Of a stretch of DNA of 64,000 bases, positions 28,287 through 47,087 are shown piece after piece. The notes below the pieces were generated by a model. That model made no database searches, was not told the DNA's origin, and saw only the letters and a program-made list of their open reading frames with translations. The position numbers were made by a program, and so were the translations under genes. Location of the stretch: assembly GCA_030536995.1 (NCBI GenBank), contig JAUNOY010000005.1, positions 70,006-134,005 of the forward strand, written 5' to 3'. The stretch is from Eubacteriales bacterium (GTDB taxonomy: Bacteria > Bacillota > Clostridia > Lachnospirales > Lachnospiraceae). Each line of letters starts with the position of its first letter. Position 1 is the stretch's first letter.

Positions 28287-28300
28287 GGAGGTAGATTACA

Positions 28301-29956: not shown

Positions 29957-29999
29957 AATCATCATCCTTTCTTCAAAAATGGGTGCATTGAACAAAGGT

Positions 30000-30040
30000 A
30001 TGTGATATAATAGATTTGACGTTGTTGGAATATATCACAT
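30000..30040. promoter_or_regulatory. 10-bp perfect inverted repeat upstream of the integrase
   Basis: ATGTGATATA (30000-30009) and TATATCACAT (30031-30040) are separated by 21 bases, two helical turns. A dimeric or tetrameric regulator could bridge them to control int. Confidence 0.4.
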
Positions 30041-30051
30041 TCCTTCATCCC

Positions 30052-30086
30052 AAGACCATGCTGAACTGCAATTCAGGGTGGTCTTT
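30052..30086. terminator. Hairpin upstream of int; weak terminator candidate
   Basis: AAGACCA pairs with TGGTCTT, with an inner CTGAA/TTCAG stem. Flanking T or A runs are short, so termination strength is uncertain. Confidence 0.4.
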
Positions 30087-30091
30087 GTGTG

Positions 30092-30280
30092 TGTCCTTAC
30101 TGTCCTTCGTGTCCCTCGTTATATACTACTATATAATATTTATTATTTATGCCTTCGCATCACTTCCTTAAAATATATCAGGTAATTATAACGAGGGACA
30201 CAAGTGACACAAAGGACACTTTGTCTGAAACCCTTATAAATCAAGGCTTTCAGTTGTCCTTCGTTGTGTCCCTGCTGTCC
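30092..30280 (-). repeat. Tripartite iteron-like array A (9-bp-phased GGACAC/TGTCC repeats)
   Basis: Cluster 1: TGTCC at 30092, 30101 and 30110 (9-bp phase). AT-rich DNA follows, containing the complement of TATATAGTAGTATATAACGA. Cluster 2, in the opposite sense: GGACA/TGACA at 30196, 30205 and 30214. After about 36 bases, cluster 3: TGTCC at 30255, 30267 and 30276. Array B at 46507-46718 has the same three clusters with matching spacings (including the 9 then 12 step) in reverse orientation. The stretch 29957-30284 holds no credible gene. An origin, partition or operator role is inference. Confidence 0.85.
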
Positions 30281-30284
30281 TTTG

Positions 30285-30866
30285 TTACTTTACTTCCAGT
30301 GAAAACACAGCCTTTTGTTCCTGACTATTTCCATCGTATGTGGAAAAATTAATTTTAAAATCGCCCGCATTATCTACACCTACACAGGACTGCGCTTCAC
30401 ATTTCCCACCTATTGGTGTTTCCTGTGGGTACATAGTAACGTCATTTGGATAGGAATATCCCATCTTACCTGTTGAATCCATAATTCCATCGATTAAGTC
30501 AATGAACAGACCATTCATTCCTTCTGCTTCATATCCGAGATTTTCATATTCGTATGTAATCAGGTATACAGCTTCAGGCGATGTTTCAGCAAATTCATTT
30601 CTTTCATCCATTTCTTCGACTGATTTGATAGTCAACGTCCACTGATTTGGAACTGTCCATGTGTCACCGATTTTGTATTCTTCCTGATTACTTCCTTCAG
30701 TGTACTTGGCGAGTTCCTTTTGTAGTTCATCAATGATTGCCTGCATACCTTGAATCTGAGTTTCCAGTTCAAAAATTTTATCATCCTTTTCATCTGCAAA
30801 TACAGATGTAGTTGGAACAAGCATCATTGATGAACATAATAATATTGATAACAGTTTCTTTTTCAT
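30285..30866 (-). CDS. Secreted prophage protein with coiled coil and DUF4352/DUF5067-like domain
   Basis: A 193-residue exported protein. The signal peptide MKKKLLSILLCSSMMLVPTT ends in a VFA-DE cleavage site. A short coiled coil follows (FELETQIQGMQAIIDELQKE), then a beta-rich domain starting near YKIGDTWTVPNQWTLTI that resembles DUF4352/DUF5067 immunoglobulin-like folds of Gram-positive cell-surface proteins. GAGGAAG precedes ATG 30866. It follows the cI repressor by about 20 bases on the same strand, so it is probably made in the lysogen as a conversion gene that alters the host surface. The 3' end abuts repeat array A. Precise function unknown. Confidence 0.7.
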   Translation of the reverse strand: MKKKLLSILLCSSMMLVPTTSVFADEKDDKIFELETQIQGMQAIIDELQKELAKYTEGSNQEEYKIGDTWTVPNQWTLTIKSVEEMDERNEFAETSPEAVYLITYEYENLGYEAEGMNGLFIDLIDGIMDSTGKMGYSYPNDVTMYPQETPIGGKCEAQSCVGVDNAGDFKINFSTYDGNSQEQKAVFSLEVK

Positions 30867-30885
30867 TTTATCTTCCTCTTTTCTT

Positions 30886-31566
30886 TTAGAATTTCTGTCT
30901 GTTTTCAATTACTTTCCCGATAATACGAACAGGTCTAGTGATAATGTCTTCGTTACTGAAGAACATCGGTTCATACATCGGATTGAAGGATTGAAGGACA
31001 ATACCTGCATCAGTCTTTACTAATTTCTTGCAAGTCGCATCATTCCCATTAACCTTTGCAATTACTACATCGCCTGATTCAGCATCATTTTGCTGACGTA
31101 CAATCAGTATGTCACCTTCCTGAATGCGAGGGGACATTGAATCACCCTTCACTTTTAGACCAAAGAACTTTCCAGACCTTGCGAGCTGTTCGGAGATTTC
31201 TTCCCAATCATCCACATCAACTAATTCAACAGCTTCGATTGGAATTCCACATGGTACTTCACCAAGAACAGGAATTCTGATTCCTGCTTCAATCTTTCCA
31301 AGTTCCGATAGGGCATCCTTTTCGTATCGTTCTGACCACTTGTCTATAACAGCGTCCCGTTCTGTTCTGAAATCCGATTCACCTGTTAAATATGCGATAC
31401 TCACACCGAAGTATTCAGATAACTTTTGAAGTGAATTCTGATTCGGTTGGAAGCCAGATTTCCATTTGGATGTTGAACCGACTGCTATTCCTGATTCCTG
31501 TTCCATTTTTCGTTTTGAAATCTTTCGTTCTTTGCATAATTCTTCAATTTTTTCTACTAATGTCAT
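30886..31566 (-). CDS. CI/LexA-like phage repressor (XRE HTH plus S24 peptidase)
   Basis: A 226-residue lysogeny repressor. Residues 1-65 form an XRE helix-turn-helix (KISKRKMEQESGIAVGSTSKW). Residues about 100-226 are an S24 LexA-type self-cleavage domain: scissile Cys106-Gly107 in LGEVPCGIP, nucleophile Ser143 in GDSMSP and general base Lys180 in DATCKKL. RecA-stimulated autocleavage would link induction to DNA damage. ATG 31566 has AAAGGA ten bases upstream; the GTG at 31572 is too close. It is transcribed leftward from a promoter overlapped by a candidate operator and probably autoregulates. Confidence 0.9.
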   Translation of the reverse strand: MTLVEKIEELCKERKISKRKMEQESGIAVGSTSKWKSGFQPNQNSLQKLSEYFGVSIAYLTGESDFRTERDAVIDKWSERYEKDALSELGKIEAGIRIPVLGEVPCGIPIEAVELVDVDDWEEISEQLARSGKFFGLKVKGDSMSPRIQEGDILIVRQQNDAESGDVVIAKVNGNDATCKKLVKTDAGIVLQSFNPMYEPMFFSNEDIITRPVRIIGKVIENRQKF

Positions 31567-31595
31567 AGGCACAAAATCCTTTCTGAAAAAAAAAA

Positions 31596-31647
31596 GTGAA
31601 TAAATTCAGCAAAAGGTATTGACAAAGATGAAGTAATTCACTATAAT
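31596..31647. promoter_or_regulatory. Back-to-back lysogeny/lytic promoters with overlapping -35 boxes and operators
   Basis: Rightward: TTGACA 31619-31624, 17 bases, TATAAT 31642-31647. Leftward: TTGTCA (complement of 31620-31625), 17 bases, TATTCA (complement of 31597-31602). The -35 hexamers share DNA. GTGAATAAATTCAGC (31596-31610) covers the leftward -10, and a related TAATTCACTA covers the rightward -10. Confidence 0.8.
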
Positions 31648-31693
31648 GACGATTGTAAGTGATGAAGAAAATCAGCACTTAATAAAACCAATA

Positions 31694-31801
31694 GCGAATA
31701 AATGACCTAAAGGCTGAATCAATTTTTCTATATGGTTATGGTGACTTTATTATAGAACTATTTCAGCAATTTGTCAAATGTTTTCGCTGAATTTATTATC
31801 G
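31694..31801. promoter_or_regulatory. Additional operator-like sites between the early promoter and cro
   Basis: GCGAATAAATGA (31694-31705), GCTGAATC (31713-31720) and GCTGAATTTATTATCG (31786-31801) are variants of the GAATAAATTCAGC operator; the last shares AATAAATTCAGC with it on the opposite strand. Confidence 0.5.
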
Positions 31802-31823
31802 AAAAATGAAAGGGGTGAAACGG

Positions 31824-32021
31824 ATGTCAGACTTCAAAAAGGAAGTGAAGATTCAGTTGATTCATAAAGGTATGACGATGACAAATCTTGCTGAAGAAAT
31901 GGGAATCAGTATTTCTTATCTTTCAGACCTACTGAATGGTAAAAGAACCAATCAGGCACAGCTTGACAGAATCAAAACCTTCCTGAATTTATCTGATACC
32001 GAGCAGTATGAAGCAGAATAG
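31824..32021 (+). CDS. Cro-like XRE helix-turn-helix repressor
   Basis: A 65-residue single-domain XRE regulator. The HTH is TMTNLAEEMGISISYLSDLLNGKR. It is the first rightward gene and faces the CI gene across shared operators, which is the expected place for Cro. ATG 31824 has AAGGGG eight bases upstream; an earlier in-frame start at 31806 would place the ribosome binding site inside the ORF. It overlaps the next small gene. Confidence 0.8.
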   Translation: MSDFKKEVKIQLIHKGMTMTNLAEEMGISISYLSDLLNGKRTNQAQLDRIKTFLNLSDTEQYEAE

Positions 32022-32193
32022 GTTATCGGTTTCACAATGTGCGTCACTGATGAATGTGTCAGAACAGTTTGTCAGGATTGGACTTCAAAGGGGTGTATTC
32101 CCTTGGGGGTATGCGGTGAAGATGTCATCACAATGGACATACTTCATTAGTCCTGTGAAGTTTACTGAACACACAGGTATCACTGTGTTATAG
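32008..32193 (+). CDS. Small HTH protein, excisionase/MerR-like
   Basis: A 61-residue DNA-binding protein with a winged-helix/MerR-type start (LSVSQCASLMNVSEQFVRIGLQRGVFPW) and a WTYFISPVKF strand, as in phage excisionases and AlpA-like regulators. It overlaps cro by 14 bases and is read in another frame. Xis is the likely role but is not proven, since integrase lies 2 kb away on the other strand. Confidence 0.65.
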   Translation: MKQNRLSVSQCASLMNVSEQFVRIGLQRGVFPWGYAVKMSSQWTYFISPVKFTEHTGITVL

Positions 32194-32206
32194 AAAGGAG
32201 AATATT

Positions 32207-32893
32207 ATGGAAGGTTATAAAGTTTTCGAACCTGATTGGACATGTAGAGGATTTCAATATGAAGTTGGAAAAACATTTGAAGAAGATGTAAAACCTTCTT
32301 GTTGTAATAGAGGATTTCATTTTTGCAAAGAATTAAAAGACTGTTTTAATTATTATCCGTTCAATCCTGATAACAAAGTTGCAAAGGTAGTTGCGCTTGG
32401 TGAACTTGATAAAGAATTAGATGGGAGTAAATATTGTACTAATAAAATTCAGATTGTTGAAGAAATCAGTTGGGAAGATGTATTAAGAATGGTAAACCTT
32501 GGAAAAGGAAACACAGGTCTATGCAACAGCGGTGATTGGAACAATACTAACTTTTCAAACGGATGTTTTAATACACAAGAACCTAAAATCTTATTGTTTG
32601 ATAAACCTTCAGATTGGACATATCGTGATTGGCTAAATTCTAAAGCAAGACATATATTGAATCAGATACCAAGACATGTGGTTGAATGGGTTCATTCAAG
32701 TGATATGACAGAAGAAGAAAAGAAATCTTATCCAACATATGAAACAACGGGCGGTTATTTAAAAATCCTTGATGAAAAAGATTGCAGTCAGATTTGGTGG
32801 GATGGACTTTCTAATGAACGTAGAGATATTATTACATCACTTCCGAATTTCAATACTGAAATTTTTGAGAAATGCACAGGTATAAAGATATGA
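32207..32893 (+). CDS. Phage protein with DUF7666-like domain
   Basis: A 228-residue early phage protein. The N-terminus (YKVFEPDWTCRGFQYEVGK and NRGFHFCKELKDCFNYYPF) matches the conserved block I associate with DUF7666. The stretch NTGLCNSGDWNNTNFSNG looks like the last degenerate units of the Asn/Gly-rich repeat array seen in longer relatives. The C-terminal third has Trp-rich helices. Function unknown. AAAGGAG precedes the ATG, and the stop overlaps the helicase start. Confidence 0.6.
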   Translation: MEGYKVFEPDWTCRGFQYEVGKTFEEDVKPSCCNRGFHFCKELKDCFNYYPFNPDNKVAKVVALGELDKELDGSKYCTNKIQIVEEISWEDVLRMVNLGKGNTGLCNSGDWNNTNFSNGCFNTQEPKILLFDKPSDWTYRDWLNSKARHILNQIPRHVVEWVHSSDMTEEEKKSYPTYETTGGYLKILDEKDCSQIWWDGLSNERRDIITSLPNFNTEIFEKCTGIKI

Positions 32894-34155
32894 TAAAACT
32901 TTTTCCGCATCAGGAAGAAGCGATAAATGAAACCAAGGGATTTCATAACATTGGAGTTTACCATGATATGGGACTGGGGAAAACCTTCACAGGGTCAGAA
33001 ATGATGAAGCGATTTGACTGTAAAGTAAACCTGATTGTATGTCAAAAGTCAAAAGTTCAGGATTGGGTGGAACATTTCACTGAATATTATCGAATGCAGG
33101 TATTTGACTTAACAGTTAAATCACAGCTTGCAGAATTTCATGGACTGTCGCAGGACGAAAGATTTTACATCGTGGGAATCATCAACTATGAACTAGCTTG
33201 GCGAAGAAAAGAACTTCTTGATTTGAAAGAATTTACCTTGATGTTGGATGAATCATCCTTGATTCAGAATCAGAAAGCAAAGCAGACTAAATTCATTCTG
33301 AAGATGCAACCTGCACATGTAATTCTTCTTTCAGGAACACCTGTCGGTGGAAAATATGAAAACTTGTGGTCACAGATGCACCTACTTGGATGGAATATCA
33401 CCGAAACGCTTTACAATAAACAGTATGTTAATTGGAAAAAGATTGATTCGGGTGGATTCACTCACAAGATTGTGGACAAAGATGACCCATACAAGAATGT
33501 TGAAAGACTGAAAAAGAAGATGCGTGAGCATGGTGCAATATTCAAGAAGACTGAAGAATGTTTTGATTTACCTGAACAGGTATTCACAGAAATCAAAGTG
33601 AAAGCGCCTAAAGAATATTGGAAATTCCTGAAAAATGAATACATAGTCATTGATGGAATGGAACTGATTGGTGACACAAGTCTGACTAAACTGCTATATA
33701 GTAGACAAATTTGTAGTCAGTATAATAAAGAAAAGATTGAAGCCTTCAATGATTTGGTAGCATCAACAACTGACAGATTGATTGTGTTTTACAATTTTAA
33801 TGAAGAACTTTATCAGTTGAAAAAGGTATGTGAAGAACTTGGAAGACCGATATCAGAAATAAATGGTCACATGAAAGACTTGACTGCATACGAACAAGAA
33901 AGTGATTCAATTACACTGTGTCAATATCAGTCAGCATCAAAAGGATTAAATCTTCAAAAGTGTAACAGGATTGTATATTTTAGCCTTACGTTATCTTCAG
34001 AAGATTTCGAACAGTCCAAGAAAAGGATTCACCGAATTGGACAGAAAAACACATGTTTCTACTACCTGATGATTTGCAGGGGAACAGTCGAAGAACAGAT
34101 TTTGAAAAACTTAAAAGAAAGGAAGGATTTTACCGATGATTTGTTTAAAGAATAA
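32890..34155 (+). CDS. SNF2-type superfamily 2 helicase
   Basis: A 421-residue SF2 ATPase of the compact phage SNF2 type. Motif I is YHDMGLGKTFT, motif II is LMLDESSLIQN (DESS instead of DEAH), motif III is LLSGTPVGG, and motifs V-VI are SASKGLNLQKC and KKRIHRIGQKN. It probably remodels DNA during phage replication or recombination. The ATG at 32890 lies in the ATGA overlap with the previous gene; an earlier ATG at 32872 is the alternative. The gene order with Gp157, VRR-NUC and an Sak4-like ATPase recalls replication cassettes of Firmicute siphoviruses. Confidence 0.85.
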   Translation: MIKLFPHQEEAINETKGFHNIGVYHDMGLGKTFTGSEMMKRFDCKVNLIVCQKSKVQDWVEHFTEYYRMQVFDLTVKSQLAEFHGLSQDERFYIVGIINYELAWRRKELLDLKEFTLMLDESSLIQNQKAKQTKFILKMQPAHVILLSGTPVGGKYENLWSQMHLLGWNITETLYNKQYVNWKKIDSGGFTHKIVDKDDPYKNVERLKKKMREHGAIFKKTEECFDLPEQVFTEIKVKAPKEYWKFLKNEYIVIDGMELIGDTSLTKLLYSRQICSQYNKEKIEAFNDLVASTTDRLIVFYNFNEELYQLKKVCEELGRPISEINGHMKDLTAYEQESDSITLCQYQSASKGLNLQKCNRIVYFSLTLSSEDFEQSKKRIHRIGQKNTCFYYLMICRGTVEEQILKNLKERKDFTDDLFKE

Positions 34156-34336
34156 GATTTTAAAAACGCTTGCGTTTTTAAATTTCCTGTCATTTCTGTG
34201 CATGATGGCATCAGAAGTAACTTTTCTTTCATTCACAATTGCGTTTTTGAATTTAGCGTTCCTGTTCCTGATGGCTTATGCAAACGGATGGGTGTACGGA
34301 ACAGATAGATATTATGAAAGAGAGGGTAAACGATGA
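34136..34336 (+). CDS. Small phage membrane protein
   Basis: A 66-residue protein with two closely spaced hydrophobic helices (about 10-27 and 28-48, FLSFLCMMASEVTFLSF and LNLAFLFLMAYANGW) and a charged C-terminal tail. An excellent AAAGGAAGG ribosome binding site lies nine bases before ATG 34136, inside the end of the helicase gene, so the overlap is real. Role unknown; superinfection exclusion or membrane tethering are possibilities only. Confidence 0.55.
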   Translation: MICLKNKILKTLAFLNFLSFLCMMASEVTFLSFTIAFLNLAFLFLMAYANGWVYGTDRYYEREGKR

Positions 34337-34764
34337 AAAAATGTAAACTTGCAATTGATGAGAACATGAATTGTCAAATGTGTTGCTATTACTGTGATGA
34401 CAAATATATTTGCAATGATGTTTGTAGTGAAATCATGGAAGACTGTCCTAAATTAATCGAAGAAACAGAACTTGATGTGATTCAGTCAGCAGTTCCCGAT
34501 GTATTAAAAGCAATCACAGATATTACAGTTGAAAAAAAGAAACTTGATGAACAGGAAAAACTGATGAAAGAAAAATTGCTTCATGCGATGGAAGAACATG
34601 GAATCAAGTCATTTGAAAATGCAAAAGTCAAATTCATGTATGTAGCACCATCAACAAGAACATCCATTGATTCAGCGAAGCTGAAGAAAGAACTTCCAGA
34701 GGTGGCGGAGCATTATTCCAAGACATCCAAAGTGTCTGCATCAGTCAGAATTACAGTAAAGTAG
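34333..34764 (+). CDS. Gp157-like phage protein with Cys-rich N-terminus
   Basis: A 143-residue protein. The first 45 residues hold seven or eight cysteines (CQMCCYYCDDKYICNDVC), a possible metal site. From about residue 50 a coiled helix (VEKKKLDEQEKLMKEKLLHAM) and the end SIDSAKLKKELPEVAEHYSK match the siphovirus Gp157 pattern, a family linked with phage-resistance phenotypes in streptococci but of unknown mechanism. The Cys-rich extension appears additional to the family core. Confidence 0.65.
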   Translation: MKKCKLAIDENMNCQMCCYYCDDKYICNDVCSEIMEDCPKLIEETELDVIQSAVPDVLKAITDITVEKKKLDEQEKLMKEKLLHAMEEHGIKSFENAKVKFMYVAPSTRTSIDSAKLKKELPEVAEHYSKTSKVSASVRITVK

Positions 34765-34772
34765 GTGATTGA

Positions 34773-35141
34773 ATGGCATCGGAAAAGAATTTTGAAAACA
34801 GGGTTAAAGCTTTCCTGAAAGAACAGGGATGTTACTTCATCAAATATTGGGGTGGAGGTGAATTCACCAAAGCAGGTGTTCCTGACATCTTGGTATGTTG
34901 TAATGGTAAATTCCTTGGGGTTGAAGTGAAAGCACAGACAGGAAGACCTAAGATGTTGCAGGTTCAGAATCTGAAAAAGATTAATGAAGCAGGGGGTTAT
35001 GGTGTTCTGTTATATCCGAATCACTTCGACTTGTTCAAAAACCTGATTCTTTGCATTAAAGCTGAAGATGAAAATGCTTCATACAACTATGACATCTTTA
35101 ATAATTTGCTTACATGGTGGGAAAGGAAACTGAATGGATAG
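34773..35141 (+). CDS. VRR-NUC domain nuclease
   Basis: A 122-residue VRR-NUC (PD-(D/E)XK superfamily) nuclease. FENRVKAFLKEQGCYFIKYWG begins the fold, GVPDILVCCNGKFLGVEVKAQTGRP contains the active-site Asp and Glu-X-Lys, and QVQNLKKINEAGGYGVLL ends it. Phage-type stand-alone VRR-NUCs act on structured DNA such as Holliday junctions. AGGTGAT lies before the ATG. It overlaps the following nuclease-ATPase gene by eight bases. Confidence 0.85.
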   Translation: MASEKNFENRVKAFLKEQGCYFIKYWGGGEFTKAGVPDILVCCNGKFLGVEVKAQTGRPKMLQVQNLKKINEAGGYGVLLYPNHFDLFKNLILCIKAEDENASYNYDIFNNLLTWWERKLNG

Positions 35142-36720: not shown

Positions 36721-36723
36721 GCT

Positions 36724-37152
36724 ATGATGAACAACACAATTCAGAAAATGAAAGACAATGGGATGTATGACAGAATGGTGAAATTCTTTGCAGAGAAGAA
36801 AGTGGAAAACGAAGGTAAAGATTTCACAAGAAAGAATGTTGAAAGAATTATTGAATTTGAAATTCTTGCACGTTCAGAGCATGATTTTGTAGACACATTG
36901 ATTCAGGATTCTATTGATTTGGGAATCAGCAAATTAGTTGAACTGATTATGAACGCAGTGGAAGAACAGGTGAAGGTTTACGCACTAAATGATGTAGACC
37001 CTGATGTACTGTTTGAGAAAGCGACAGGATGCAAACATGCTGACCTTGAAATAGGTGACAGCGGATTTAAGAAATCCAATGAAGGCAAGATTAAAGATGC
37101 AGTTGTTGGTGGATTCTTAAAATTTGTTTTAAATAATATTTTAGGTAAATAA
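36724..37152 (+). CDS. Phage protein of unknown function
   Basis: A 142-residue, mainly helical acidic protein in the recombination cassette. It has a charged N-terminal half (KMKDNGMYDRMVKFFAEKK) and a final VVGGFLKFVLNNILGK amphipathic helix. No motif is recognised. AAAGGAAAG lies upstream and it sits four bases after the nuclease-ATPase gene, so it is probably co-translated and perhaps a partner. Confidence 0.6.
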   Translation: MMNNTIQKMKDNGMYDRMVKFFAEKKVENEGKDFTRKNVERIIEFEILARSEHDFVDTLIQDSIDLGISKLVELIMNAVEEQVKVYALNDVDPDVLFEKATGCKHADLEIGDSGFKKSNEGKIKDAVVGGFLKFVLNNILGK

Positions 37153-37175
37153 GAAAGGTTAAAAAGGTGAAAATT

Positions 37176-37631
37176 ATGAGTATTTTTGAAAATTGGGACA
37201 AAAGTATTGATACAGAAGGATTACAGAAAGACATCGCTGAAGCCGAAAAATCTGGTGGTTCAGGGGAATATGAGGAAGTTCCTGTCGGTACATACGAGGT
37301 GAAAATTGAAAAGATGGAACTGAAGGAATCCAAAAAAGGTGACCCAATGTTCTTCTGTCAGTTCAGAATCCTTCAGGGTGGCTTCAAAAACAGTTGTCTG
37401 TTCATGAATCAGGTCATCACACAGGGCTTCCAGATTGGACAGGTCAACCGATTCCTTCGTAGTCTTGACGCTGTGGACACTGTGGAATTTAAAACATACG
37501 CACAGTATAATGACCTGATTCTTGACATCATGGAAGCGATTGATGAAAAACTGGAATTTCTGCTTGAATTTAAAAAGTCTAAAAAAGACTTCCCTATTTA
37601 CACAATCAAAGAAGTATACGAAGTAGAGTAA
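37176..37631 (+). CDS. DUF669-like phage DNA-binding protein
   Basis: A 151-residue protein with the pattern of DUF669 phage proteins, thought to be ssDNA-binding or recombination accessory factors: EVPVGTYEVKIEKMELKESK, MFFCQFRILQGGFKNSCLF and GFQIGQVNRFLRSL. It lies next to the Sak4-like ATPase, as is common for this family. ATG 37176 follows a double purine-rich leader (AAAGG at 37154, AAGGTG at 37164) almost identical to that of the capsid gene. Confidence 0.7.
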   Translation: MSIFENWDKSIDTEGLQKDIAEAEKSGGSGEYEEVPVGTYEVKIEKMELKESKKGDPMFFCQFRILQGGFKNSCLFMNQVITQGFQIGQVNRFLRSLDAVDTVEFKTYAQYNDLILDIMEAIDEKLEFLLEFKKSKKDFPIYTIKEVYEVE

Positions 37632-37651
37632 GGAAAGGCGGGTGAATCTTG

Positions 37652-39466
37652 ATGTTGTTCTTTGACTTTGAAGTATTCGTCAAGGATTGGCTTGTAGTCA
37701 TCCTTGATATGAATGCTAGAAAAGAATATATCATTGTAAATTCACCTGATGAGCTTAAAGCATTCTACGAAAAGCATAAAAATGATATTTGGATAGGATT
37801 CAACAATCATCATTATGATGATTACATCCTGAAAGGCATTCTGTGCGACATGAATCCCAAGGAAATCAATGACCACATCATTGTAAAAGAACAAGCAGGT
37901 TGGACGTTTTCCAACCTGTTTCGTTCAATCCCGCTTCTGTCTTATGATGTTTTTCAGGCAAAGGTGGACAGGGGATTGAAGTTCTTCGAAGGGTCACTTG
38001 GGAATATGGTGAAAGAATCATCCATCCCATTCGATATTCCAAGGAAACTTACTGAAGCTGAAATTCAGGAAACAATTAAATATTGTAGACATGATGTTGA
38101 ACAGACAGTTGAAGTATTTATTCAAAGGAAAGCTGATTTTGATGCTATTGTTTCGCTGATAAAAATGTTTTCAGAATCATTATCAATTAAAGATATCGGT
38201 CTTACTAAGGCTCAAATGAGTGCTAAAATTTTAGAGTGTAAAAAGGTCAGCAGGAATGATGAATTTGACCTGTTTGTATTACCTTGTATTGATATCAAGA
38301 AGTACAGAAAAGCAATAGATTTTTACATGTCGATGAAAGGGAAAACAAATCAGAAAGAAGTGTATTCCCAAAAGTTGAACATGGTTATATCAGGAATCGT
38401 ACATAATATCAGTTGGGGTGGAATTCATGCGGGAAAAGAAAGATACATGAATCTTGGAAAAGGTAGGCAGATTTGGCACATTGACGTGGCTTCGTTTTAT
38501 CCAAGATTGATGATATTTCATAATCTGCTCACAAGGAATTCCAGTAAACCTGACAAGTTCAAAATGATTTACGATAAACGAATCGAGTTGAAACATGCGG
38601 GGAAGAAGAAAGAACAAGCACCTTTGAAAATCGTTATCAATGGTACTTATGGAATCAGTAAAGCAGTAACATCAACAGCGTATGACCCAAGGAATGCGAA
38701 TCTAATATGTATGAATGGTCAGTTGATGCTGATTGACCTGATTGAACATCTCGAAAAGATAGATGGATTTGAATTAATACAGTCCAACACAGATGGTCTG
38801 ATTATCAGTCTTCCTGATACAGATGAAGCGTTTGAACAGATGGATGACATTTGTTTTGAATGGGAAAAAAGATGCAACATGGAATTGGAATTTGATGAAA
38901 TCACTTCCATTTGGGAAAAAGATGTGAACAACTATGTATTCATCTTTTCAAATGGGAAGGTTGAAAGAAAAGGTGCATATGTGAAAGAATTGTCTGCACT
39001 TGATTATGACCTTCCAATCGTCAATAAAGCGATTGTAGATAGAATTACGAAAGGAATTCCGATTGAACGAACTATCAGAGAATGTGATGACCTGAAGGAA
39101 TTCCAGATGATTAAAAAGATTTCATCAAAATATAAATGTCTTCTGCATGGTGGACATTGGGACTCATACAAAGCAATTAATCCGTCCAGTGGTCGATTGA
39201 AAACATTTACAAGATTTATCGGGAATCCTACAAAACTTCCTGAACGATGTGTTAGGGTGTTTGCATCAGTCAATGAATCAGATGGCGGTCTGTGGAAAAT
39301 CAAAAAGGACGGAAGTCAGGCGAAGGTTGAAGGGACACCTGAGCACTGTTTCATTTTCAATGAAAACGTGAATGATGTAAAAGTTCCTGCAAAGTTAGAC
39401 AAGCAGTGGTACATGAATACCGCATACGATAGAATCGCAGGATTTGGAATAAATGAAGGAAGGTGA
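37652..39466 (+). CDS. Phage DNA polymerase, family B-like
   Basis: A 604-residue replicative polymerase. The exonuclease domain shows FFDFEVF, IGFNNHHYDDY and YCRHDVEQT. The polymerase motifs are A at about 278 (DVASFYPRLM), B at about 325 (KIVINGTYGIS) and C at about 377 (SNTDGLII, a variant of the DTDS type). It is compact compared with cellular family B enzymes. ATG 37652 is used rather than the adjacent TTG 37649. With the D5 helicase just downstream, the phage appears to replicate largely independently of host PolC. Confidence 0.82.
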   Translation: MLFFDFEVFVKDWLVVILDMNARKEYIIVNSPDELKAFYEKHKNDIWIGFNNHHYDDYILKGILCDMNPKEINDHIIVKEQAGWTFSNLFRSIPLLSYDVFQAKVDRGLKFFEGSLGNMVKESSIPFDIPRKLTEAEIQETIKYCRHDVEQTVEVFIQRKADFDAIVSLIKMFSESLSIKDIGLTKAQMSAKILECKKVSRNDEFDLFVLPCIDIKKYRKAIDFYMSMKGKTNQKEVYSQKLNMVISGIVHNISWGGIHAGKERYMNLGKGRQIWHIDVASFYPRLMIFHNLLTRNSSKPDKFKMIYDKRIELKHAGKKKEQAPLKIVINGTYGISKAVTSTAYDPRNANLICMNGQLMLIDLIEHLEKIDGFELIQSNTDGLIISLPDTDEAFEQMDDICFEWEKRCNMELEFDEITSIWEKDVNNYVFIFSNGKVERKGAYVKELSALDYDLPIVNKAIVDRITKGIPIERTIRECDDLKEFQMIKKISSKYKCLLHGGHWDSYKAINPSSGRLKTFTRFIGNPTKLPERCVRVFASVNESDGGLWKIKKDGSQAKVEGTPEHCFIFNENVNDVKVPAKLDKQWYMNTAYDRIAGFGINEGR

Positions 39467-39471
39467 ACAAC

Positions 39472-41376
39472 ATGGTTTGGAATGGTAACAATATTGTATT
39501 CAAAGGATATGCGACAGGGGAAGGTAAGAATCCAACAATGAAAGTCAAAGGGGTCAAACTTCTTTCATGGGAACAGGTAGAAGGGAATAAGTCCTTCGGT
39601 GCAATTCTGAATAAAGACTTCGTTGACATCAGCTTCGATAGTGATGAACTGTCACAGAAATTTTGGTACATGGCTGAAAAAAATGATTGGAATTGTCTGA
39701 TTCTCGAAAACCCTACAAACGGACATATTCATAGTTACTGGAAAGACACTCATCACAGAATAGAGAAGGGTGGAAAAGACAAGAAACTTGCGGTCGGATT
39801 AATTGCTGATATTCATTCAGGCGCTACATACATTCCTTTGAAGGTGGATGGTGTAGAACGATTCCCGCCTTCCTTCGAACCTGATTACATTGATGAAGTC
39901 CCTGATGAATTGCTTCCAGTCAATACACAGATTGACCTTCTTAACCTGTCAGAAGGTTCAGGACGAAACGATGACCTGTTCAAATACATACTAATACTTC
40001 AGTCACAGCTGTCTGTGGAAAAGGAAGGAATCAGACGTATATTGAATAACATCAATCATTTCATCTTTCAGGACGCACTGTCCGATGAAGAAGTAGATGT
40101 TATAGCAAGAGATGAATCATTTGCGAAGCCTATCTTTTACAAAGGAAAAACATTCCTTCATAATAACTTCGGTCAATATCTTAAAAACGAATATCACGTT
40201 ATTAGACTGAATGGTCAGTTACATGTGTACGATAACGGAATTTATAAGTCAGGTTATCGTTTCATCGAATCCAAGATGATTGAAGTCATTCCAACATTGA
40301 AAGCTACACAGAGAAGTGAAACTTTGAAGTTTCTGGAAATCATCACACCTGATGATGTAGCACAGTCAGATGCGAACCTAATCGCTTTCAGAAATGGTGT
40401 TTACGATTTGGAAACTGATGAATTGAAACCATTCAGTCCTGAATATATCATCACCAATATGATTCCATGGGACTATAATCCTGAAGCGTATAGTGAACTG
40501 TGTGACCACACTCTTGATAAGATGTCCTGTTTTGATAAGGAAATTAGAGCAGTATTGGAAGAATCAATCGGTTATTGTTTCTTCAGACAGAATGAATTAT
40601 CCAAGTCCTTCATCCTAACAGGAACAGGGAGTAATGGTAAATCGACATTTTTAGATATGGTCAAAAATGTTCTTGGTAGACCTAACTATGTATCACTTGA
40701 CATGGACGAATTGTCCGAAAGATTTTCAGTTTCATCCATGTTCGGGAAGTTAGCAAATATCGGTGATGATTCCAATGATGAATTCCTTCAGGGAAAAGCA
40801 CTGTCGCAGTTCAAAAGACTTGTTTCAGGTAATGACATGAAGGGTGAAAATAAAGGACAGGATGTGTTCTTCTTCAAGCCTATGACGAAACTGTTCTTTT
40901 CATTCAATGAAATTCCAAGGATGCGAAACAGGGGATTCGATGCAATCAAACGAAGACTTGTCATTATTCCTTTCAATGCAAAATTTAGCAAGGAAGACCC
41001 TGATTTCGATGCAGGAATCACTTGGAAATTGAAGAAGCAGGATGTAGCAGAATATCTAATAATGTTAGGAATTCAAGGATTGAAACGTGTTCTTGAAAAT
41101 CAGGGATTCACAGAATCTAAAAAGGTCAGGGACAAAGTTGACCAGTTCGAAAAAGACAACAATCCAATTCTTCTGTTTCTTGAAGAAATTGATGAATCTG
41201 AAATTCTGAATCACGAAACAAAAGAAGTATTCGCAAGATATGACGTGTTCTGTAATGACAACGGATTCACAAGAATTGCGATGCAGACTTTCACGAAAGA
41301 AATCAAAAAGAATCTGAAATGTGACCGAAAGGTTATCAGGATAAATGGTAAAAAATCAACTATATTTGTGAGGTAA
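39472..41376 (+). CDS. D5-type phage helicase/primase (SF3)
   Basis: A 634-residue protein. The C-terminal SF3 helicase has Walker A at about 382 (TGTGSNGKSTF), a Walker B-like ANIGDDSND and LFFSFNEIPRMR; the upstream D5_N region (ENPTNGHIHSYWKD) and the NLIAFRNGVYDLET signature are clear. A winged-helix-like end follows. The N-terminal 150 residues correspond to the primase/polymerase region of relatives. ATG 39472 with AAGG eight bases upstream is favoured over GTG 39463. Such helicases unwind the phage origin. Confidence 0.85.
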   Translation: MVWNGNNIVFKGYATGEGKNPTMKVKGVKLLSWEQVEGNKSFGAILNKDFVDISFDSDELSQKFWYMAEKNDWNCLILENPTNGHIHSYWKDTHHRIEKGGKDKKLAVGLIADIHSGATYIPLKVDGVERFPPSFEPDYIDEVPDELLPVNTQIDLLNLSEGSGRNDDLFKYILILQSQLSVEKEGIRRILNNINHFIFQDALSDEEVDVIARDESFAKPIFYKGKTFLHNNFGQYLKNEYHVIRLNGQLHVYDNGIYKSGYRFIESKMIEVIPTLKATQRSETLKFLEIITPDDVAQSDANLIAFRNGVYDLETDELKPFSPEYIITNMIPWDYNPEAYSELCDHTLDKMSCFDKEIRAVLEESIGYCFFRQNELSKSFILTGTGSNGKSTFLDMVKNVLGRPNYVSLDMDELSERFSVSSMFGKLANIGDDSNDEFLQGKALSQFKRLVSGNDMKGENKGQDVFFFKPMTKLFFSFNEIPRMRNRGFDAIKRRLVIIPFNAKFSKEDPDFDAGITWKLKKQDVAEYLIMLGIQGLKRVLENQGFTESKKVRDKVDQFEKDNNPILLFLEEIDESEILNHETKEVFARYDVFCNDNGFTRIAMQTFTKEIKKNLKCDRKVIRINGKKSTIFVR

Positions 41377-41382
41377 ATAAAT

Positions 41383-41844
41383 ATGGACTATTCAATGGTA
41401 CAGCTTAATTTGGTAAAAGAAGCGAATGCAAGAGATTGTAAATTTAAAAATTTCAATAGCAAGTATGGGAAATATAAAAACAAAGTTGGACTTATTATCG
41501 ATAACGCAAGCACGATGGTATTAATTCCTGAAACTGCGTTTTATCTTGATATTAGTAAAATATTCAAAAATGCCGAAGCTATGAATATCGAAAGTGTGAT
41601 TAATATGAAAAATTCAAAAGTATTGATTAATACTAAGCAGATGGTAGTTACGGATAAGTACAACCTTTGTGTTTTCCAGAATGACGAGCATGAAAAATTT
41701 TATGTGAATGAGCGTTTATTAAAAACTTTCAAAAGTATAAAAAAACCAATCTTTGTAGGCACAGATGCTAAATCACCTATATATGTATTTGAAGAAGATG
41801 ACCTTGTTGGTCTTGTTCTTCCAGTAAGACATCATGAAAATTGA
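41383..41844 (+). CDS. Phage protein of unknown function
   Basis: A 153-residue mixed alpha/beta protein, Lys- and Asn-rich, with no motif I recognise. Near-identical spacing to its neighbours and a GAGGT just upstream support it as a real gene. It lies between the helicase and small accessory genes; possibly a nucleic-acid-binding accessory. Confidence 0.55.
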   Translation: MDYSMVQLNLVKEANARDCKFKNFNSKYGKYKNKVGLIIDNASTMVLIPETAFYLDISKIFKNAEAMNIESVINMKNSKVLINTKQMVVTDKYNLCVFQNDEHEKFYVNERLLKTFKSIKKPIFVGTDAKSPIYVFEEDDLVGLVLPVRHHEN

Positions 41845-42031
41845 ATGGGTATCTGTGGAAGAAGATACCCCACAGATTCAGAAAGGTTTGGAATACTGTT
41901 CTGTAAATGTTATAGGATTAACTTCGAAGAAACAAGAAAAGGAAGTATTCTTCGATTATAGATATGAACTTTGGTATAACTCGAACGGAACAAGATGTAA
42001 AGAAAAAATAATAAAATGGAGAAGTTTATGA
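41834..42031 (+). CDS. Small DUF551-like phage protein
   Basis: A 65-residue protein. The start IEWVSVEEDTPQ and the later EVFFDYRYELWYNSNG resemble DUF551 proteins, short phage ORFs beginning with a W-x-S/V-x-x-x-x-P block. It overlaps the previous gene by 11 bases and the next by four (ATGA). The ribosome binding site is weak, so translation may rely on coupling. Confidence 0.55.
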   Translation: MKIEWVSVEEDTPQIQKGLEYCSVNVIGLTSKKQEKEVFFDYRYELWYNSNGTRCKEKIIKWRSL

Positions 42032-42387
42032 TGGAAAGATTACATGATGGATGTATAGGTTGTGAATATGATGATTTAGCTTGTACAGATTTCCCTTGCA
42101 TAGCTTGTAAGCAGAACCACATGGAAGGTGAAGGTGATTATCCTGACTTGTGGAAGGAATCTGACCAAAACGATGCAGTGAATCATCCGTCCCACTATTG
42201 TCAGGATGGGTCAATGGAATGTATTGATGAAATGATTGAGGTCTTTGGTGAAGAAAATGTAAAAGCTTTTTGTGTCCTGAATGTCTGGAAGTATCGCAAA
42301 CGTGCGATGTTTAAGAATGGCAAGGAAGACCTGAAGAAAGCTGACTGGTACATGAACAAATTCAAAGAATTAAATAGAAAGGATTGA
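42028..42387 (+). CDS. DUF3310-containing phage protein
   Basis: A 119-residue protein. The C-terminal 65 residues carry the DUF3310 signature VNHPSHYCQDGSMECIDEM and FCVLNVWKYRKRA, a family sometimes labelled nucleotide kinase in phages though its reaction is uncertain. The N-terminal half has six cysteines (CIGCEYDDLACTDFPCIAC), suggesting a small zinc site. ATG 42028 in the ATGA overlap has GGAG seven bases upstream. Confidence 0.75.
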   Translation: MMERLHDGCIGCEYDDLACTDFPCIACKQNHMEGEGDYPDLWKESDQNDAVNHPSHYCQDGSMECIDEMIEVFGEENVKAFCVLNVWKYRKRAMFKNGKEDLKKADWYMNKFKELNRKD

Positions 42388-42393
42388 TTGAAC

Positions 42394-42891
42394 ATGAATT
42401 ATCACAACATCACAAAGGATGATATGCTGAATGGCGAAGGTCTTCGTGTGGTGCTGTGGGTCGCAGGATGTGAACACCATTGTGACGGATGTCAGAATCC
42501 TGTCACATGGAATCCTGTTGATGGACTTCCATTCGACACCGATGCTAAATATGAATTATTTGAAGCGTTGTCGAAGGATTATATCAGCGGGATTACATTC
42601 AGCGGGGGTGACCCACTGCATCAGAATAATTTAGCTGATATAGGTAAATTAGCACATGAAGTTAAAAGAAAATTCCCGAAGAAAACTGTGTGGTTATACA
42701 CAGGGTATACTTGGGAACAGGTGGAACATTTGACAGAATTGTGGAAAAATGTGGATGTTCTTGTAGATGGAAGATTTAATAACGATTTGTGCGATGTCAG
42801 TTATCCTTGGGCGGGGTCTACTAATCAGAGGGTTATTGATGTCCAGAAAACACTGAAAGAAAGGAAGGTGATTCTTTATGAAAATCATTAA
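42394..42891 (+). CDS. nrdG: Anaerobic ribonucleotide reductase activating protein (radical SAM)
   Basis: NrdG uses SAM and a 4Fe-4S cluster to generate the glycyl radical on NrdD. Cys26, Cys30 and Cys33 form the radical-SAM CxxxCxxC in VAGCEHHCDGC. TFSGGDPLHQNN is the SAM-binding GGE-like motif. Length of 165 is standard. ATG 42394 has AAAGGA ten bases upstream; TTG 42388 is too near. The 14-base overlap with nrdD shows coupling. Confidence 0.93.
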   Translation: MNYHNITKDDMLNGEGLRVVLWVAGCEHHCDGCQNPVTWNPVDGLPFDTDAKYELFEALSKDYISGITFSGGDPLHQNNLADIGKLAHEVKRKFPKKTVWLYTGYTWEQVEHLTELWKNVDVLVDGRFNNDLCDVSYPWAGSTNQRVIDVQKTLKERKVILYENH

Positions 42892-45013
42892 AAAGGACGG
42901 AACACTTGAAGCGTACAATTTTGAGAAAATAAAAAATGCAATCAATAAATCAGCGGATAGGGTGATGATTCACCTAACTGCTGAAGACTATGAAGAAATT
43001 CAGAAGAACGTCACACAGGTTTTAAAACATATCACTACCGATATCGATGTGAGTATGATGCACAATATCGTTGAAGATGTTCTTGAAGATTTTAATAAGG
43101 AAATCGCTAAGTCATACAAGGATTATAGAAATTACAAAAAAGATTTCGTTCATTTGATGGATGAAGTTTATGTGAAATCACAGTCAATCAGATTCATCGG
43201 GGATAAAGAAAACAGCAACACTGATTCCGCTTTAGTTGCTACAAAGAGATGTCTGATTTTCAATGAATTGAATAAAAGATTATATCGCAAATTCTTCATG
43301 ACTAAGGACGAATTGCAAGCCTGTAAGGATGGTTATATTTATATCCATGACCAGTCCGCAAGACTGGACACGATGAACTGCTGTCTGTGCGATATTGCTT
43401 CCATCATGCAGGGTGGCTTTGAGATGGGAAATGTCTGGTATAACGAACCAAAGACATTGGACACAGCATTTGATGTCATGGGTGATATAATCCTTTCCAC
43501 TGCATCACAGCAGTATGGTGGATTCACTGTTCCTGAAGTGGACAAGATTCTTGAACCTTACGCACAGAAGTCTTACAAGAAATACTTCGATGAATTCTGT
43601 GAAATCGTTGATGATAAAGAAACAGTATATGACACAATCAATCGTGCAGGCGAATATGCAAAGAAGAAGGTCGAAAGAGATTTCGAACAGGGATGGCAGG
43701 GAATTGAAATGAAGCTGAACACAGTCGGTTCGTCCAGAGGTGACTATCCTTTTATTACAATGACATTCGGACTTTCTACTGAATTATTTGGGAAAATGGC
43801 ATCAATCACCTTCCTTCAGGTACATAGTAAAGGACAGGGAAAAGAAGGAAATAAGAAGCCAGTCCTATTTCCTAAATTGGTCTTTCTTTATGACGAAAAG
43901 ATTCATGGTGAAGGATGTATGAATGAAGATGTCTTTGAAGCAGGAATCGAGTGTTCTTCCAAGACTATGTATCCTGATTGGCTGTCCCTTTCAGGTGATG
44001 GATATGTTGCTGAAATGTATCAGAAATATGGAAGGGTAGTAAGCCCTATGGGATGCAGGGCATTCTTGTCACCTTGGTTTGAACGTGGTGGAATGACACC
44101 TGCTGATGCAGATGACAAACCTGTCTTTGTTGGAAGATTCAATATCGGTGCTGTCAGTCTTCACCTTCCAATGATTTTAGCAAAATCAAGACAGGAAAAC
44201 AAAGATTTCTACGATGTACTTGATTTCTACCTTGAAATGATTCGTGGAATTCATAAGCGCACTTATGACTATCTTGGTGAAATGAAAGCATCAGTGAATC
44301 CAATCGCATACTGCGAAGGTGGTTTCTATGGTGGATATCTTAAGCCAGATGAGAAAATCAAACCACTGCTGAAACCAATGACAGCATCTTTTGGTATCAC
44401 AGCACTGAATGAACTTCAGGAATTGTATAACGGAAAATCCCTTGTGGAAGACGGACAGTTCGCACTGGAAGTTATGAAACACATCAATGACAAGGTTAAT
44501 CAGTTCAAGGAAGAAGATGGATGGTTATATGCTATCTATGGGACACCTGCGGAAAGCCTGTGTGGTCTTCAGGTAGAGCAGTTCCGTAAAAAGTACGGAC
44601 TGATTGAGCATGTATCAGACAGACCTTATGTGTCCAATTCATTCCATTGTCATGTGACAGAAGACATCAGTCCGATTCAGAAGCAGGACTTGGAAGGAAG
44701 ATTTTGGGATTTGTGTAATGGTGGAAAGATTCAGTATGTGCGTTATCCAATTGGTTACAACAAGGATGCAATCAGAACATTAGTCAGAAGGGCGATGACT
44801 AAAGGATTCTATGAAGGTGTGAACCTGTCCCTTGCATATTGTGATGATTGCGGACATGAAGAACTGGAAATGGATGTATGTCCTGTGTGTGGTTCGAAGA
44901 ATCTGACAAAAATTGACAGGATGAATGGATATCTGTCATATAGTCTTACCCATGGTAGTACGAGACTTAATGAAGCGAAGATGGCAGAAATAAAAGAAAG
45001 GAAATCAATGTGA
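42878..45013 (+). CDS. nrdD: Anaerobic (class III) ribonucleoside-triphosphate reductase
   Basis: NrdD makes dNTPs under anoxia. A short N-terminal ATP-cone ([21 protein letters not shown]) is followed by the ten-stranded barrel with [10 protein letters not shown]. The C-terminal zinc site is [18 protein letters not shown], and the glycyl radical loop is [10 protein letters not shown], a variant of RVxGYL. Length of 711 is normal. A phage copy with its own activase would raise dNTP supply in a strictly anaerobic host. AAGGAAGGTGA precedes its ATG. Confidence 0.94.
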
Positions 45014-45690
45014 TGAAATATACGGTTGGAGATAAAGTGAAAATTAAATCTTGGGAACAGATGTTTCAGGAATTTGGGACTGATATAGATGGCGATATTA
45101 AATGTAGGACTGATATTTGTTTTGAAAATGGAATGCGAAAGTATTGCGGGGAAACTATGACTATACATGAAGTATATTATGATAATTATAAAATGAAAGA
45201 AGACAATGGTATTTGGGCTTGGAGCGATGAAATGATTGAATATTTAGTTTGTGATGATGTTACGATTGATGTTAAATATCATGCAGACATCGCACATCTT
45301 GAAAAAATTGAACAGGGTGATTGGATTGACCTTCGTAGTGCTGAAGATGTCATCCTTAACTTTGGCGATTACAAGATGATTAGTCTTGGGGTTGCTATGC
45401 AGTTGCCTGAAGGATATGAAGCACACGTTGCACCAAGAAGTTCAACTTTTAAGAATTTCGGAATCATCCTTGTGAATGGAATCGGAATCATTGATAACAG
45501 CTATTGTGGTGATGATGATATTTGGAGATTCCCTGCACTGTGTCTGAAGCAGGAAGGAACAGTTATCAAGAAAGGTGACAGAATTGCACAGTTCAGAATC
45601 GTCAAGAAACAGCCTGACATCAGATTCAAAGAAGTGGAACATCTGGAAGGAACTAATCGTGGTGGCATAGGAAGCACAGGGGTGAATTAA
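45013..45690 (+). CDS. dut: dUTPase with N-terminal SH3/KOW-like phage domain
   Basis: A 225-residue protein. The trimeric dUTPase motifs run [48 protein letters not shown] and [12 protein letters not shown], from about residue 90. Residues 1-75 ([14 protein letters not shown] to [12 protein letters not shown]) form a separate small beta domain common in phage proteins and absent from cellular Dut. dUTPase prevents uracil incorporation and makes dUMP for dTMP synthesis, consistent with the ThyX-like gene downstream. ATG 45013 overlaps the nrdD stop (TGATG). Confidence 0.85.
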
Positions 45691-45816
45691 ATGACATGGA
45701 TTATTAAACTTTCCCTGCTTTTTATAGCTTGGGGAATATACGGGAGTGTTGAAAAAAGTGACAATTCAGGTGATTTTTACATGGTTTTGTTATCAATTAT
45801 GATTGTTTGTGGATAA
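45691..45816 (+). CDS. 41-residue phage membrane microprotein
   Basis: The ORF starts immediately after the dUTPase stop, with AGGGGTG eight bases upstream. It has two hydrophobic segments (IIKLSLLFIAWGIYG and FYMVLLSIMIVCG) linked by a charged SVEKSDNSGD loop, so a helical hairpin is predicted. It fills the otherwise empty gap in the cassette. No function can be named. Confidence 0.55.
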   Translation: MTWIIKLSLLFIAWGIYGSVEKSDNSGDFYMVLLSIMIVCG

Positions 45817-45831
45817 GAAAGGAATAAAAAG

Positions 45832-46497
45832 ATGTTAAAATGTAAAATTTTGGGTGTAAATGGGGTTGACCATGCAATCAGAGGAATGAGGAATCCAATG
45901 AATTCATGGAATAAAAGTGATTCATGTTGGAAAGATTCAGAACTGAATCCTGTTTATCATGATGACTTCAATGATGGTGTTACCGCATATTCAATTGGTG
46001 AGAACGATAGAGACCTGATGAAAAAACTTTTCAAAGGTGGTACAGAACACAGGAAATATTTGAGAATGATTCAGGTATATGTGGATATTGAAGCACCTTT
46101 GTATTGGTGGAAGGAATTTGATACATACAAGATTGGAACTGTCTGCAATTCCTGTTCCACCATGCACAAGATTCATTCCAAGGAATTCACCCTTGATGAT
46201 TTCAGTCATGAGCATTTAAGTCATGGTGAATATGGAAACATTGAAATGATGAAGTGTGTGATTAATTGTTTGAATATAGCAAGGGAACAATTTCTTGAAA
46301 CCAAAGACAAAGGTTGTTGGTGGCAGATGATTCAGCTTCTTCCTTCCAGTTACAATCAGAAGCGTACTGTGATGCTGAATTATGAGGTGGTGGTGAACAT
46401 CATTAGACAGCGTGAACATCACAAACTCGATGAATGGCATCAGTTAATTGACGCATTCAGACAGCTTCCAATGATTAACACCCTTCTGGAATCATAA
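45832..46497 (+). CDS. ThyX-like phage protein lacking the RHR motif
   Basis: A 221-residue protein with a layout that recalls flavin-dependent thymidylate synthase. Its central strand IEAPLYWWKEFDTYKIG with CNSCSTMHKI occupies the place of the ThyX RHRxxS signature, and the C-terminal LLPSSYNQKRTVMLNYEVV and REHHKLDEWHQLID resemble the ThyX dUMP-binding end. The diagnostic Arg-His-Arg triad is not present, so it is either a diverged or inactive relative, or a separate family. Neighbouring dUTPase and NrdD/NrdG fit a pyrimidine role. AAAGGAAT lies upstream. Last gene before repeat array B. Confidence 0.5.
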   Translation: MLKCKILGVNGVDHAIRGMRNPMNSWNKSDSCWKDSELNPVYHDDFNDGVTAYSIGENDRDLMKKLFKGGTEHRKYLRMIQVYVDIEAPLYWWKEFDTYKIGTVCNSCSTMHKIHSKEFTLDDFSHEHLSHGEYGNIEMMKCVINCLNIAREQFLETKDKGCWWQMIQLLPSSYNQKRTVMLNYEVVVNIIRQREHHKLDEWHQLIDAFRQLPMINTLLES

Positions 46498-46506
46498 AAA
46501 TAGTGG

Positions 46507-46718
46507 TGACAAGGGACACGAAGGACAGCACAAGGGACAGCGGAAACCCGCATAAATAAAGGCTTTTAGGACTACTGTCCCTTGTGTCCTTCGTGTCCTT
46601 CGTATATTCTTATAAGAAATACAAAATAAGATAAAAATTTTCAAGAATAATAAAAAAAAAATATATATATAGTAGTATATAACGAAGGACACCGAGGACA
46701 GCGAGGACACAAGGGACA
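46507..46718 (+). repeat. Tripartite iteron-like array B (9-bp-phased GGACAC/TGTCC repeats)
   Basis: Cluster 1: TGACA/GGACA at 46507, 46514, 46523 and 46535. A spacer with AAACCCGCATAAATAAAGG follows, then inverted cluster 2: TGTCC at 46576, 46585 and 46594. About 85 bases of AT-rich DNA contain TATATAGTAGTATATAACGA, then cluster 3: GGACA at 46687, 46696, 46705 and 46714. The last unit overlaps the ribosome binding site of the next gene (AAGGG, six bases before ATG 46722). Same build as array A, opposite orientation. Confidence 0.85.
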
Positions 46719-46721
46719 GGT

Positions 46722-47087
46722 ATGTTAGAGCATATTAGAATATTAAAATTGAGAATTGATAATCTTCAGAAGAAGATTGATAATTTCACAACACTGAGTG
46801 CAATTCGATATGATAAGGAATGTGTACAGACCAGTGCAACAGGTGACAGTCTTGAAAAAGCTGTCATTCGAAATATCGAGAATCAGCAAAAATTGAATCA
46901 GTTGAAAGTCAGGTATGAAAACCTGAAGAACAAAATCAATCTAAATCATTACACGTCAAGACAACAGGAATTCATTGAACTGTATTATTTTCAAGGATTA
47001 TCGATAAATGAATGTTCACAGTTCATGAACGTGAAATGTCCTGCAATTAGTAGAATAAAATGCAGAATTAATTCAGCAAAACCTTGA
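46722..47087 (+). CDS. Sigma-70 region 4-like phage regulator (ArpU/DUF1492 type), probable late activator
   Basis: A 121-residue protein. An N-terminal coiled coil (EHIRILKLRIDNLQKKIDNF) is followed by a C-terminal HTH resembling sigma region 4 (SRQQEFIELYYFQGLSINECSQFM, then ISRIKCRI). ArpU, RinA and DUF1492 proteins of this shape switch on packaging and structural genes in Gram-positive phages. Position directly before terminase, with a consensus promoter overlapping its stop codon, supports that role. Its own ribosome binding site is inside repeat array B, so a factor binding there as DNA or RNA could control it. Confidence 0.7.
   Translation: MLEHIRILKLRIDNLQKKIDNFTTLSAIRYDKECVQTSATGDSLEKAVIRNIENQQKLNQLKVRYENLKNKINLNHYTSRQQEFIELYYFQGLSINECSQFMNVKCPAISRIKCRINSAKP

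Follow-up and report, generated by a model that had tools for sequence, protein, structure and literature searches.

Background

Replication origins served by self-loading D5-type initiators comprise short phased repeats (iterons) at an AT-rich segment and a cognate D5-type primase-helicase encoded in the same element; usually, but not universally, the site lies directly downstream of the helicase gene. Here we describe two arrays of GGACA repeats, A and B, that bracket the early region of a prophage in a 64,000-nucleotide stretch of an Eubacteriales bacterium genome (contig JAUNOY010000005.1; the whole stretch is termed the window, and positions count from its first letter). Both arrays have short phased repeats at an AT-rich segment, and the same element encodes a cognate helicase of this type, Rep, a 637-residue P4-family primase-helicase (39463-41376, plus strand; TIGR01613, D5_N, DUF5906 and Pox_D5) that we propose as the initiator; neither array lies directly downstream of its gene. 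Very probably (roughly 0.85, judging from sequence comparison), each array serves this helicase as a replication origin of the iteron type, or as such an origin together with an accessory site.

The closest annotated counterpart is found in phage Sfi21. Its record (NC_000872) annotates positions 34487-34784, just after a putative primase, as an origin of replication, and names this origin phage inhibitory sequence. The origin is a 302-bp non-coding region. According to PMC6356513, which cites Foley 1998, the element is an independent origin activated by infection, and copy-number dependent protection is described for it. As in the window, inverted short iterons (GTAAC) face out of an AT-rich gap, the spacers AAACCCATTGAAAATAAAGGGTTT and AAACCTTGATATATAAGGGGTTT resemble the window's AAACCC...GGCTTT, and the adjoining putative primase is related to Rep (26% identity over 324 residues). 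However, the GTAAC units of Sfi21 follow one another at 8-bp steps, as read by eye, and its record annotates just one copy, which immediately follows the primase gene.

Satellite phage P4 (NC_001609) offers a precedent for two sites. Its crr and ori are separate regions with the same annotated type 1 repeats, its annotated origin is remote from the helicase gene, and its primase-helicase is related to Rep in the C-terminal part (21% over 386 residues, E 3e-12). The crr element, named in PMC9942202, has repeats at 9 and 18 bp. P4 ori repeats are instead spaced at 10-11 bp, our detector did not find the window's plan in P4, and crr consists of two 120-bp direct repeats, whereas A and B are single arrays that are mutually inverted. 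A third comparison is provided by the SaPI Rep and SCCmec Cch2 helicases, initiators that work with iterons. PMC7581432 reports a Primase_Cterm domain common to SaPI5 Rep and Cch2 and places iteron binding at the C-terminus, probably as two hexamers. Their origin is single and directly downstream of the helicase gene, whereas the window's arrays are distant and twofold.

Array structure

An earlier note on this DNA described three 9-bp-phased clusters per array with the middle one inverted, and this description is accurate. Array A (30092-30280, minus strand) lies between the integrase gene and the repressor side and reads as a minus-strand cluster (units at 30092, 30101 and 30110), an AT-rich gap (30115-30195; 81 bp, 26% GC), a plus-strand cluster (30196, 30205 and 30214), a spacer containing AAACCC and ATAAA, and a second minus-strand cluster (30255, 30267 and 30276). 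The spacer holds a hairpin, CTGAAACCCTTATAAATCAAGGCTTTCAG (30225-30253), of 10 pairs with one mismatch. Array B (46507-46718, plus strand), between a phrog_6721 gene and a sigma-like gene before terS, has an outer plus-strand cluster (46514, 46523 and 46535), a spacer with the motif AAACCCGCATAAATAAAGGCTTT (46544-46566; weak score in the hairpin test), a middle minus-strand cluster (46576, 46585 and 46594), an AT-rich gap (46599-46686; 88 bp, 14% GC) and a last plus-strand cluster (46687, 46696, 46705 and 46714). From the order of clusters and gap, B is A reversed: the 9 then 12 step of B is mirrored as 12, 9 in A, TATATAGTAGTATATAACGA is common to both in inverted orientation, and in both arrays the spacer and outer cluster point toward the early region. 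The matching spacings, opposite facing, AAACCC/ATAAA spacer and AT-rich stretch of about 80 bp given in the note are thus all present. GGACA units hold for A and B generally, with the unit at 30205 reading GTGACA instead.

Such phasing is far beyond chance. The window has nine 9-bp GGACA steps, whereas 300 dinucleotide shuffles averaged 0.11 and never exceeded 2; it also has four GGACA triplets, and the shuffles none. When all 5-mers were scanned, the best had six phase-9 steps in 250 bp, compared with one at each of phases 6-8 and 10-13, and 60 shuffles gave only one or two steps at phase 9. Across the whole host genome, the triplet pattern with at most one mismatch had five matches, every one at A or B, against one for the backwards control. 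A terminator-like inverted repeat (AAGACCATGC...GGTGGTCTT) is located at 30052-30085, just left of array A, and a similar repeat with a T run precedes array A of a phage with a related Rep (locus L129, about 1830-1880).

The spacer was characterized in 44 hand-chosen regions (43 arrays and Sfi21), with the unit typed for each; at a length filter of 20-52 bp, 36 of them yielded 60 spacers. Length was 36-39 bp in 39 of the 60, and AAACC or GGTTT occurred in 36, against a mean of 4.4 and a maximum of 13 in 200 shuffles. The mean stem was 4.97 compared with 3.98 when shuffled, the highest of 100 shuffle means being 4.28. The hairpin excess is therefore weak, and the spacer motif is better conserved than pairing. 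An earlier hairpin test outside the arrays found mostly pairs of outer iterons and was consequently replaced by this one, in which spacers were cut between clusters.

Linkage to helicase genes

The earlier note considered that no initiator gene was evident. This was mistaken, as the product of 39463-41376 scores 202.9 bits (cutoff 108.7) with the NCBIfam model TIGR01613 for P4-family phage/plasmid primases, which together with its Pfam matches makes it a plausible initiator. The only PDB sequence match of Rep up to E 0.01 was a 'DNA primase' (7ola/7om0, 1.2e-32), presumably SaPI5 PriRep1.

Arrays of the same letters were then sought in IMG/VR with a bracket pattern of two TGTCC units, a 70-100 bp gap and two GGACA units. 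At least 120 stretches were found, compared with 37 in all for a reversed-letter control, at least 9 of which hold the true bracket too. Among the fetched loci, 122 hold the bracket: 108 from the bracket search, 12 from a looser triplet pattern and 2 from the control. That first triplet pattern proved too loose, since only 12 of its 120 loci had the bracket; some of its matches resemble repeats within genes, spaced by multiples of 27 bp (L012, L069). Gap GC was lower than locus GC in 107 of the 122 array loci. Separately, in some GC-richer array loci (L008, L017, L025, L051 and L217) the gap carries alternating purine-pyrimidine tracts (CGCGCGTACG-like) and is not AT-rich.

Clustering of open reading frames placed one protein family in 81 of the 122 array loci, making it the largest family near the arrays; the remaining families were left unannotated. 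Where both flanks of the array reached at least 2.5 kb, the family was present in 39 of 48 loci. A Pfam scan of 79 members (2 were dropped for size) returned DUF5906 in 48, VapE-like in 43 and D5_N in 14. In 69 of the 81 loci, no more than 350 bp separated the longest member from the array, and in all 67 near, non-overlapping cases the array was on the 3' side of the gene; over all distances, it was downstream in 75, upstream in 4 and overlapping in 2. Furthermore, a profile of the helicase part, grown from the window's Rep in four rounds over all loci fetched by then, recovered relatives in 32 of the 122 array loci in the first round and in 50 in the last, 46 of these 50 within 320 bp of the array. 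By comparison, relatives were present in 9 of 108 loci without the bracket from the looser triplet search and in 7 of 28 loci from the reversed-letter control. The likeness to replication origins raised by the earlier note is thus supported by comparison, through both the plan of the annotated Sfi21 origin and this linkage to D5/VapE-type helicase genes.

Conservation of the plan with changing repeat letters

Three phased GGACA units occurred in none of the first 16 Rep relatives fetched (39-80% identity). The reading that this absence suggested, namely that the arrays are not linked to Rep, was overturned by the intergenic regions of these relatives, which show the plan with GAACA or GAACC units. 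Four of them (L130, L132, L135 and L129) share the window's layout with the units AGAACA, GAACA, TTGAACA and GAACC, and AGAACA, TTGAACA, TTGAACC, GTAACA and more are among the iterons of Rep relatives that keep the plan. Array conservation in related phages, proposed earlier as a check, therefore holds for the plan, which is widespread in IMG/VR and among Rep relatives, but not for the GGACA letters, which change in the closest relatives of Rep.

The relatives were extended by 154 loci to a set of 170; a set of 172, used for a looser count, had the window, Wanderer and PI-Sepi-HH2 among its members. In 31 of the 170 loci, a letter-blind detector located AT-rich gaps flanked by inverted pairs of 9-bp-phased repeats; when at least five units were required, it gave 10 inverted and no direct or reversed pairs. 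The looser count placed an iteron-like region in 108 of the 172 loci, an upper count because the regions are partly unread by eye, against two regions in 58 triplet-shuffled loci. Among named phages, tblastn of Rep returned 1421 records, all below 60% identity. The looser detector flagged a region with AAGACA units directly after the primase gene of PI-Sepi-HH2, and the sole region flagged in Wanderer precedes the primase gene. With either array as query, BLASTN gave no match among named phages; rapid divergence of the iterons may be the reason.

Close relatives of the host were also searched. Across 64 same-genus genomes, including the host's own, the strict bracket pattern matched in the own genome only, at B only, and Rep was present at 1e-60 or better in 7 of 397 family genomes, the own included (loci L312-L318). 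Two same-genus elements, in genomes G040 and G061 (L477 13007-14731 and L479 15754-17553), have in common the integrase and about the first 220 residues of Rep; in these two, the rest of Rep had no match and no array was found.

Twin inverted copies

Two arrays bracket the early region in seven phages, namely the window's prophage, in which array A fell below the looser-count threshold and was counted by eye, and L129, L399, L338, L355, L435 and L365. As in P4, two distant sites thus carry the same iterons in the window and its six relatives, and the repeat type of A and B is identical within each phage. The leading 6-mer of A occurs in the own B 5 times in the window, 11 in L399, 7 in L129, 7 in L355 and 12 in L338. 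When the same 6-mers were counted in the B arrays of the other phages among these five, 16 of 20 cells gave 0-2; the four remaining cells gave 5 to 11, each of them between two of the three phages with a common TTGAA core (L129, L355 and L338).

In six of the seven phages, the AT-rich gaps of A and B scored higher as inverted copies of each other than any of 300 mononucleotide shuffles, and between-phage gap scores among the first five ranged from 11 to 18. For full arrays, the inverted match of A with B beat the direct match in all seven. This concerted change points to a role for both gaps or to recombination between the copies. Many other integrase-bearing loci have a single array right after rep, and most relatives seem to have one array; L319 had none. 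Seven further loci with two regions that do not share listed repeats were left out of the two-copy count. Full-text literature searches, judged by titles and abstract openings and with subscription journals mostly outside their scope, gave no description of this array or of twin inverted origins. Two features look new here, namely mirrored twin arrays that change in concert and a fixed plan whose letters drift.

Proposed mechanism and alternative explanations

In the mechanism we propose, which the SaPI and SCCmec helicases suggest, the inner clusters, which face opposite ways across the AT-rich gap, would each have their GGACA units bound by one Rep hexamer, and these hexamers would open the gap. 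The two helicases would then move apart, with the phage polymerase and single-strand DNA-binding protein following, while the outer cluster and hairpin spacer may serve as an accessory Rep site. A and B would both be read by the same Rep, as ori and crr are in P4, and the two sites may divide the labour between them.

Several observations weigh against this assignment as an origin. The rep gene adjoins neither array (A is 9.2 kb upstream and B 5.1 kb downstream), unlike the arrays of IMG/VR. The GC skew switches sign near A, as does gene strand, with which it is confounded. The helicase family is missing from 41 of the 122 array loci; in 32 of these one flank is shorter than 2.5 kb, and in 9 both flanks reach at least 2.5 kb. 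The reversed-letter control contains Rep relatives too, in the 7 of 28 loci given above, so it is not free of such genes. The controls of the letter-blind detector gave 10 of 170 for direct and 2 for reversed pairs, against the 31 inverted, and in its strict form it found nothing in Wanderer, PI-Sepi-HH2, P4 or Sfi21, missing the last because its steps are 8 bp. At the looser-count threshold, 64 of the 172 Rep loci lack an array, some being short contigs. Two copies are a minority arrangement: among the 20 loci that combine an integrase match with one or more regions, three have two regions with shared repeats, in addition to the window, and L132 and L351 show an integrase and a downstream array with no second array. 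Finally, the gap match of L365 was 19.0 against a shuffle maximum of 20.0.

The first alternative to be weighed is that only one copy is an origin. The other, probably A, would then be a decoy or serve copy control, titrating Rep and blocking superinfection in the way that extra copies of the Sfi21 origin do. The phage inhibitory sequence label of the Sfi21 record and the copy-number dependent protection described in PMC6356513 favor this idea, as does the less regular make-up of A, with one GTGACA unit and a gap of 26% GC. However, the AT-rich gap, and not just the binding units, changes in concert in six of the seven phages, and we regard a decoy as unlikely. Alternatively, the arrays could be operators for a phage transcription regulator, such as the sigma-like 46722 product or the repressor, at the early/late and integrase-repressor boundaries. 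The last unit of B does end close to a gene, with the start codon of 46722 only 3 bp after it, and A lies between the integrase and the repressor side. Nevertheless, IMG/VR arrays follow helicase genes in all of the near, non-overlapping cases, the largest family near them is the helicase (the other families being unannotated), and iterons with an AT-rich gap match the annotated Sfi21 origin, which makes operators improbable.

The earlier note also suggested that two inverted copies could loop or invert the 16-kb interval between them. The copies are indeed inverted and partly alike, but integrase (minus strand) and Rep (plus strand) keep one relative orientation in the window and in the three other two-copy loci that have the integrase in view (L129, L399 and L338), L355 agrees relative to its repressor, and the longest gap match in the window is only about 30 bp; inversion thus finds no support, and crossover sites are a very improbable explanation. 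Centromere-like partition sites, suggested in the same note, would fit iterated repeats in inverted clusters. A family that reads by eye like a ParB-domain methylase was also seen in 17 of the 122 array loci (e.g., L236, 3690-5024), at listed distances of at least 1.6 kb from the array. However, the partition (ParA/ParB) genes that go with a parS-type centromere were not recognised by Pfam in the 27 phage proteins from the integrase to 51665, several of which had no match at all, and the prophage has an integrase. With no positive support, a centromere function is scarcely credible.

Returning to iteron-type origins, a clade of prophages might run a true two-origin replicon, in which mirror-image origins bracket the early region and gene conversion keeps them alike while iterons drift; we offer this only tentatively. 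If true, firing at both would either over-replicate the early genes or drive two pairs of forks into the late genes. Phage replication from two origins is thus a testable question, raised by the twin inverted layout and its concerted change. The constant plan combines 9-bp iterons with a spacer of some 37 bp that bears an AAACC motif, and with an AT-rich gap of roughly 80-110 bp between mirrored iterons. Because this plan stays while the iteron letters change, the origins of many D5/VapE-type phages and prophages could be predictable from sequence, and the initiator-iteron code would be testable across natural pairs.

Prophage setting

The early region comprises an integrase, an S24 repressor, a Cro-like protein, an SNF2 helicase, a nuclease/Sak4 protein, a single-strand DNA-binding protein (37167-37631, plus strand; phrog_7778), a DNA polymerase directly upstream of rep (37649-39466, plus strand; phrog_1252) and then Rep. 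The left neighbour of array A is the tyrosine integrase (28901-29995, minus strand), and the right neighbour of array B is the sigma-like regulator (46722-47087, plus strand; phrog_36). Upstream of the integrase gene, a 15-bp inverted repeat (93%, 21 bp apart) at 29995-30045 is possibly an operator. The early region also encodes an anaerobic ribonucleotide reductase (a radical-SAM protein and NrdD) and a dUTPase (42388-45690). A ribosomal L13 gene, in the interval 27858-28693 that takes in an open reading frame at 28301-28693, directly adjoins the prophage at the integrase end, and a host lacto-N-biose phosphorylase gene is situated nearby (25405-27567).

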